Origin: Globomyces pollinis-pini
Taxonomy: Eukaryota > Chytridiomycota > Chytridiomycetes > Rhizophydiales > Globomycetaceae
Assembly (NCBI GenBank): GCA_025399215.1
Contig: MU621521.1
Location: 1-12,383, forward strand
Direction of reading: 5' to 3'
Length of the DNA stretch: 12,383 nucleotides
Both the position numbers and the translations under genes were made by a program. The notes beneath the pieces were generated by a model. It was not told the origin of the DNA. It did not search any database and worked only from the letters and a program-made list of their open reading frames with translations. Of the stretch, positions 3,001 through 3,856 are shown piece by piece. Each line of letters begins with the position of its first letter. Positions within the stretch are counted from its first letter, which is position 1.

Positions 3001-3856
3001 ATGGAAAAGTTACCAACAAATTCGACTTACTTCTCACTGCCATTAAAAACCAATGCGGATATAAAAGCTATTAAAATGCCTTCGGATCCATATCAGAGAC
3101 ACAAGTATTTGCTTAAACACTATCCAGGTCCAACTTTAACCAAATCGGATACCATATCAGAAATCGATATCCTTAAAAAAAATCATCAGTAACCTAGTAG
3201 TTCTAACTTTAGATTTCTAAGAGATTCTAATGACGTAAGTTGGGAGGCAAGAGTTGCGCAAAAGTATTATGACAAGTTGTTCAAGGAATACTGTTTGGGG
3301 GACTTTTCTAGATATAAAACTGGTGCTATTGGTTTACGATGGAGAACAAAACAAGAATGCATTTCTGGAAAAGGTTTTCAATGTCATCTCTCAGTCATTA
3401 GGGTAATTGTTACTTCACTGACACCAAAGACAATTTGTGTGTGGTAATATAAAGTGCGATATAGGTGAGGATCTACACTCTTGGGAAGTTAATTTCGTCT
3501 ATTTGGAAGAGCGTACAAAGAAGAATGCCTTAGTAAAAATCAGACTTTGTCCAAAATGCTCTGTTCAATTAAACTACAAAAAGATGAAAGAGGAGAAAGT
3601 ACGAGCAAAAATGGAAAAGAAATTGAAGCGTAAAGAAAGCCAAAAGGATTGTGAAAGTGATATGTCCAACCTCAAGCGGCAAAAAGTAAACGAGACAAGT
3701 GATAAAGAAGCGGAATTGGACGTGGAAGAAATTATTGAAAATCCAGTCGAGCATCAGAACATTTGGAGTAAACCAATTGTACTATCTACAGAAGAATTGG
3801 GTGCGAAATCTAAGGAGGAAGAAATGGATGAATTTTTGTCGGATTTGTTACTTTAA
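3001..3856 (+). CDS. FRA10AC1: FRA10AC1 family nuclear protein, with candidate 1-nt exon
   Basis: Exon 1 is 3001-3188, exon 2 is 3213-3373, then a single base at 3402, then 3430-3856. The product is 258 residues. Signature blocks are HKYLLKHYPGPT (~34-45), LKKNHQFLRD (~58-67), KYYDKLFKEYC, GLRWRTKQE and SGKGQFVCGN, followed by WEVNF and NALVKIRLCPKCSVQLNY. Four cysteines (121, 126, 157, 160) form CxxxxC and CxxC pairs that look like a zinc site. The C-terminus is Lys/Glu-rich and acidic, ending EEMDEFLSDLLL. From family knowledge, FRA10AC1 is a nuclear protein linked to the spliceosome. The intron 3189-3212 is 24 nt with TTCTAAC before its AG. Joining exon 2 to the last exon with one GT...AG intron breaks the frame. 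Two adjacent introns around a lone G, or an indel, are needed (see separate entry). The gene ends 31 bp from the convergent gene at 3888. Confidence 0.92.
3374..3429 (+). other. Twin-intron segment around a putative 1-nt exon (G3402) in FRA10AC1
   Basis: Intron a is 3374-3401 (28 nt, GTTTTC...CATTAG). Intron b is 3403-3429 (27 nt, GTAATT...CCAAAG). The single G at 3402 is all that remains between them. The join reads GGA AAA G|G|A CAA, that is, G-K-G-Q, exactly the conserved SGKGQF block. A single 56-nt intron leaves the frame one base short. Alternatives giving the same mRNA are a non-canonical TT...AG intron (3375-3429) or a GT...AA intron (3374-3428). A missing G in the assembly (AAAAGGG read as AAAAGG) is also possible. 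The two-intron lengths match the window's typical intron size. Confidence 0.5.

Follow-up and report, generated by a model that had tools for sequence, protein, structure and literature searches.

Among published single-nucleotide exons, the closest described cases are the one-nucleotide microexons of the plant genes APC11 and VPS55 (PMC4674806; PMC8831610) and, in a fungus, the exon of Fusarium CYP621A (PMC12940212), and a search of the partial open literature returned nuclear exons of this kind from plants and Fusarium only. Two further arrangements come near: fungal stwintrons, in which adjoining introns are spliced out in turn by intron definition (PMC5639578), and the ratchet points of recursive splicing, where an AG runs directly into a donor (PMC8605326). 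A first-pass annotation of the DNA studied here, which counted very few one-nucleotide exons and named one in Arabidopsis, was incomplete in this respect, as APC11 and VPS55 (PMC8831610) and CYP621A (PMC12940212) show.

In this work, we analyse FRA10AC1 of the chytrid Globomyces pollinis-pini, whose genome assembly spans 18.5 Mb in 459 contigs, within a window that comprises one entire contig (C425, 12,383 bases). We put at roughly 84% the probability that this gene carries two ordinary minimal spliceosomal introns, of 28 and 27 nt, around one exonic G that forms the middle of the Gly117 codon, and that they are removed one after the other. FRA10AC1 belongs to a splicing-associated family, as the first-pass annotation had stated and in agreement with the abstracts of PMC13199054 and PMC10048706; we see no link between that association and the gene's own unusual exon.

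Reading frame and family constraint of FRA10AC1

The gene lies on the forward strand. By translation, exon 1 (3001-3188) opens with a start codon at 3001, the same start as in the public model P0001, and is followed by a 24-nt intron (3189-3212, GTAACC..CTAAC..TTTAG) whose junction is also found in P0001. Exon 2 (3213-3373) ends in GGAAAAG, the last letter of which is the first base of the Gly117 codon. It is followed by intron A (3374-3401, 28 nt, GTTTTC..TTAG, with a weak branch site), the putative one-nucleotide exon (3402, a G, the second base of the codon split as G/G/A), intron B (3403-3429, 27 nt, GTAATT..CACTGAC..AAAG) and the last exon (3430-3856), which opens with ACAATTTGTG (QFVCGN) and closes with a stop codon at 3854-3856. 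Exactly one base stands between the AG acceptor of A and the GT donor of B, and both introns have canonical GT..AG ends. Joining 3001-3188, 3213-3373, 3402 and 3430-3856 yields an unbroken protein of 258 residues that contains SGKGQFVCGNIKC. The letters and coordinates of both introns are exactly those given by the first-pass annotation, and removing 3374-3429 as one 56-nt intron does break the frame, as it had also stated. The assembled genomic letters at the junction are AAAAGGTTTTC, and the mRNA predicted once 28+1+27 is resolved into two introns reads GGAAAAGGACAATTT; the predicted junction would instead be GGAAAAGGTGAGGAT with a 91-nt intron, GGAAAAGGTTTTCAA with A kept and GGAAAAGACAATTT with no G.

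We enumerated 920 sets of zero to two GT/GC-AG introns at 3330-3520 and scored the resulting proteins with a profile of 13 relatives. An open frame is retained in 149 of these sets, and the 28+1+27 solution ranks top at 327.7 bits, about 24 bits ahead of the next (303.6). Its protein is produced by this one canonical set only and, when single introns with any ends were tried (donors at 3360-3379, acceptors at 3420-3435), by three non-canonical 55-nt introns (GT-AA, TT-AG and TT-GA). When the interval was shuffled 20,000 times with dinucleotides preserved, 2.3% of the shuffles held a G-type one-nucleotide exon with both introns of 23-40 nt. Taken by itself, the AG-G-GT motif is modest evidence; the weight lies in the frame together with the conserved block. 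Introns A and B were also considered as duplicates of each other and rejected, their similarity being no higher than that of shuffles (p 0.67, 5,000 shuffles).

The enumeration and the listed relatives agree that, without G3402, the frame would be lost within a conserved motif. These 119 relatives (P0002-P0120) are those listed as best among 425 matches and, as the query already held the block, are no blind sample. Gly117, Cys121, Cys126, Cys157 and Cys160 are each identical in all 119, Phe119 in 118 and Gln118 in 113. In 115 of the 119 the gap from GKG to FxC[GA] is one residue, with the remaining four outside the pattern used, and none of these 115 has an insertion at the point where the glycine codon is split. 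Solved structures gave no match to FRA10AC1 at E 0.001, and scans for the DNA of relatives at this locus matched 40 stretches of genome contigs and two of viral contigs, none of them from a relative.

The closest record among the matches listed, P0001, is the public FRA10AC1 model of Globomyces sp. JEL0801, whose contig measures 54,606 bases, compared with 12,383 here, and which thus comes from a separate assembly. It equals our 258-residue translation minus the 12 residues QFVCGNIKCDIG, with 246 of 246 shared residues identical, and a 91-nt GT-AG intron at 3374-3464, which takes out those residues, reproduces it letter for letter. The block without which P0001 stands holds two of the cysteines that are invariant in the 119 listed relatives. 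A predictor that skips so conserved a block is what we would expect if the JEL0801 DNA, too, lacks a simple frame. Since a single in-frame 56-nt intron would have been easy to model yet was left unused, that DNA presumably lacks one, and a local assembly slip is argued against because a model on another contig skips the same block.

Splice signals and competing explanations

To describe the introns of this genome we used a purpose-written gene finder trained on 212,383 bases, of which 8,944 are N (L008 1-3018 and L014 1-5926 read N). It called 225 introns, 203 of them 23-40 nt long with a mode of 28 nt and 22 longer. Some longer introns are real, for instance one of roughly 150 nt that interrupts a kinesin P-loop. 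In the range from 41 to 63 nt only two were called (54 and 55 nt), each divisible into two intron-sized units. GTA predominates at the donors and TAG at the acceptors, with YTRAY-like branch sites 6-10 nt before the intron end. Introns A and B lie inside the 23-40 nt range, and with 28 nt as the commonest length, their description as typical for this DNA holds. Ranked by splice signals among 231 called introns, B is ordinary (20.8th percentile) and A weak (0.9th), with the branch site of A at the 1st percentile of 203, and the gene finder leaves the one-nucleotide junction uncalled, taking only 3584-3856 with or without micro-exons. Because the junction is uncalled, the case for FRA10AC1 rests on homology, not on signals.

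Several other explanations have to be weighed. Were the assembly short of one base at the exon boundary, FRA10AC1 would have a single ordinary GT-AG intron of about 56 nt; one absent G would mend the frame, and such an intron would retain the weak GTTTTC donor along with the good branch site of B. Against this, the frameshift-aware gene finder found no frameshifts in 113,870 coding bases at a penalty of -10 and six at -8 (it recovered 81 and 100, respectively, of 160 simulated indels), and base-level assembly slips are therefore probably uncommon. Single introns near 56 nt are rare here, an AG-G-GT inside such an intron would have arisen by a 2.3% chance, and the separate JEL0801 record skips the block, although one in-frame 56-nt intron would have made an easy model. 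The assembly deletion, which the first-pass annotation had raised, is therefore weakened by the JEL0801 model and the low frameshift rate, and we regard it as very improbable. The same low standing applies to a canonical 52-nt intron at 3403-3454 (GTAATT..ATAAAG), with which 3374-3402 would be coding and the protein, perhaps an alternative isoform, would read GKGFQCHLSVIRCDIGEDL. It is open and in frame and slightly outscores the two-intron parse on splice signals (-11.6 against -13.3), but it falls 25 bits below that parse against the relatives, would make the family motif QFVCGNIKC at 3430-3456 intronic by accident, implies an insertion found in none of the listed relatives that fit the pattern (115 of 119) and is unused in the JEL0801 model.

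A true frameshift in a decaying gene, or a real 91-nt splice of the JEL0801 type that omits the motif, seems more improbable still: the public model has that form and intron A is weak, whereas elsewhere the protein is intact and matches JEL0801 in every shared residue, and the block lost would include two cysteines that no listed relative lacks. Least credible is one non-canonical intron, GT-AA at 3374-3428 or TT-AG at 3375-3429. Both had been suggested as giving the same mRNA, and both do give the same protein, but the ends are non-canonical, the length is 55 nt and the AG-G-GT in mid-intron would have to be coincidental. Two introns with G3402 kept, as the first-pass annotation read the locus, are supported because this is the sole canonical solution enumerated that restores the conserved block unchanged, because both introns have usual lengths and because AG/G/GT occurs in a dehydrogenase gene too.

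That both introns are spliced, and singly, we infer from the observed sequence, frame, family constraint and intron lengths and from the like arrangement elsewhere. Introns A and B would each be recognised alone, by intron definition, and removed in two rounds, with G3402 carried through as a whole exon. If A left first, AAAGG/GTAATT would stay as a good donor, and if B left first, TTAG/G would stay usable. As to origin, an exonic GG probably offered neighbouring insertion points, AG/G and GG/N, with one intron gained at each, which would fit since the base is the middle of a glycine codon in two of the three cases here and in Fusarium.

Predicted one-nucleotide exons and touching introns elsewhere in the genome

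The dehydrogenase case (L029 1440-1620, plus strand) is a short-chain dehydrogenase (SDR) gene in which a G stands between introns of 29 and 32 nt, both starting GTATTTCATT. The order G/29 nt/G/32 nt/T restores TFGKLNIIFNNAG, with the junction at TFG/KLNIIFNNAG, and the base is the middle of a glycine codon, as in FRA10AC1. The gene finder called this exon unaided (total 70.5 with micro-exons and 63.2 without), and homology concurs: two of 34 intron sets are open, scoring 546.9 versus 495.1 bits with a profile of 28 relatives. The best 120 of 8,000 scored homologues, bacteria included, are 67-86% identical; a strict motif for the junction fits 80 of them, and none of the 120 is a Globomyces record. 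The SDR exon is stronger than that of FRA10AC1, and the arrangement is almost unavoidable there.

A further candidate is found in an RBR gene (L033 600-760, minus strand), where the gene finder and homology place a G between introns of 26 and 34 nt. The order V/26/G/34/AG gives CPFCNYVEEAPERT, and relatives read CPFCRYIEELP, CPFCKYIEEQP and CPFCKYVEEQP, whereas the public G. pollinis-pini model P0241 (VEAPERT) uses a single 63-nt intron and lacks one Glu found in relatives. The 26+G+34 solution is best in both homology (378.5 versus 370.8 bits with six relatives, 339.6 versus 331.7 with three) and splice score (-4.5 versus -11.1). It is a candidate only, because its difference from P0241 is one residue. 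Both the SDR and the RBR exons are of the form AG/G/GT.

Whole-genome patterns show no excess of one-nucleotide spacing. Strong doublets with a one-nucleotide G spacing match five times, compared with three in a reversed control, and these five loci comprise one one-nucleotide exon (SDR), one stretch read as exon and three single introns after which the coding sequence opens with GGTA. A looser pattern has 47 matches and its control 141, that is, fewer in the genome; of 11 of the 47 loci examined, two are called one-nucleotide exons (SDR and RBR) and nine are not. Further counts were 9 against 22 in the reversed control and, for bases other than G, 127 against 398. A score-only census of 262,383 bases found no one-nucleotide doublets over threshold and 1, 1 and 0 for three decoys. 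At L009 (7307-7361, plus strand), a translation-GTPase-like gene may hold a 3-nt exon (GGA) flanked by introns of 26 and 25 nt, in frame but in a poorly conserved stretch, so that a 54-nt intron is equally good.

Candidate touching introns, with AG joined to GT, were also counted. When doublets were allowed across the 262,383 bases, the gene finder took four with zero-nt and one with 3-nt spacing, compared with two events in total, none zero-nt, for seven decoy dinucleotide pairs, and the score-only census counted eight zero-nt doublets, where each of three decoys gave none. In whole-genome patterns the counts against control are 85 and 35 at zero nt, where part of the 85 must reflect single introns upstream of an exon that opens with GTA, 19 and 21 at 2 nt, and 21 and 13 at 3 nt. 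Zero-nt pairs of intron-sized GT..AG units lie at L010 (1120-1175 and 2646-2704, minus strand), in a trehalase gene at L020 (2383-2447, minus strand, 30+34 nt), which aligns gap-free across the junction to solved neutral trehalases, and at L003 (4784-4845, plus strand), one of the four being in a weak gene (score 6.3), that of L003. In a kinesin-13-like gene (L013 7299-7381, minus strand), two, perhaps three, touching introns lie between VRKRPVNSK and EMKKGIFDII, where 26+28 nt, and perhaps another 28, must go between VNSK and EMKKG.

Longer runs also occur. L042 (432-544, plus strand) has four head-to-tail GT..AG units (32, 30, 26 and 24 nt), three with a branch-like CCTAACT, and L043 (minus strand) has runs of four (199-305; 30, 25, 26 and 25 nt) and three (441-536; 31, 29 and 35 nt) look-alike GT..AG units, which we suspect of having arisen by tandem duplication. 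As no gene was called at either locus, these arrays could instead be minisatellites or single long introns. We found no description of arrays of touching nuclear introns in the partial open literature searched. A supposed array at L044 was dropped, the gene finder reading most of it as exon; L045 lies outside any called gene.

It is conceivable, though we hold it at somewhat less than even odds, that the spliceosome of this fungus is limited to introns near 28 nt and that FRA10AC1 is one point on a continuum of zero-nt doublets, AG/GT arrays of three or four and one-nucleotide exons at GG codons, cleared one at a time and with no lower exon limit. If so, the arrays would show intron multiplication through tandem duplication.

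Significance and comparison with known systems

A one-nucleotide exon between near-minimal introns leaves no exon sequence to recognise, so that the spliceosome must there work by intron definition alone. Several such exons together with touching introns, in one small culturable genome, would allow direct tests of the order of splicing and of how the introns were gained. They also carry a warning that automatic annotation loses conserved blocks, as in JEL0801 FRA10AC1 with its two missing invariant cysteines and, as a second example, the G. pollinis-pini RBR model with its one missing residue.

Stwintrons (PMC5639578; PMC9024468) are likewise fungal and likewise consist of paired short U2 introns in contact or almost so, but in them a splice signal of the external intron is interrupted by the internal one and nothing between the two is retained, whereas in FRA10AC1 both introns are whole and G3402 must stay, which sets the gene apart from that class. 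A ratchet point (PMC8605326) is a zero-nt exon in long introns, AG joined straight to GT. The resemblance noted by the first-pass annotation is thus a likeness only, as one G is kept here between minimal introns, and a closer match to ratchet points than FRA10AC1 is offered by the zero-nt doublets found at other loci of this genome. Like the plant exons of APC11 and VPS55 (PMC4674806; PMC8831610), which are constitutive or alternative, the FRA10AC1 exon is one nucleotide long and needed for the frame; in place of its G, APC11 has an A, within a stretch of 422 nt, and the plant exons have been tested by RT-PCR, reporters and RNA-seq, whereas FRA10AC1 is read from sequence. Closest is Fusarium CYP621A (PMC12940212), also fungal, where annotation likewise misses a single G in AG/G/GT that is the central base of a conserved glycine codon. 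Its intervening stretch is longer, 139 nt in F. graminearum compared with 56 nt in FRA10AC1, and it has RNA reads and about 20 orthologues behind it, compared with genomic sequence for FRA10AC1. To the published single-nucleotide exons of plants and Fusarium, FRA10AC1 would add one marked by unusually short flanking introns.
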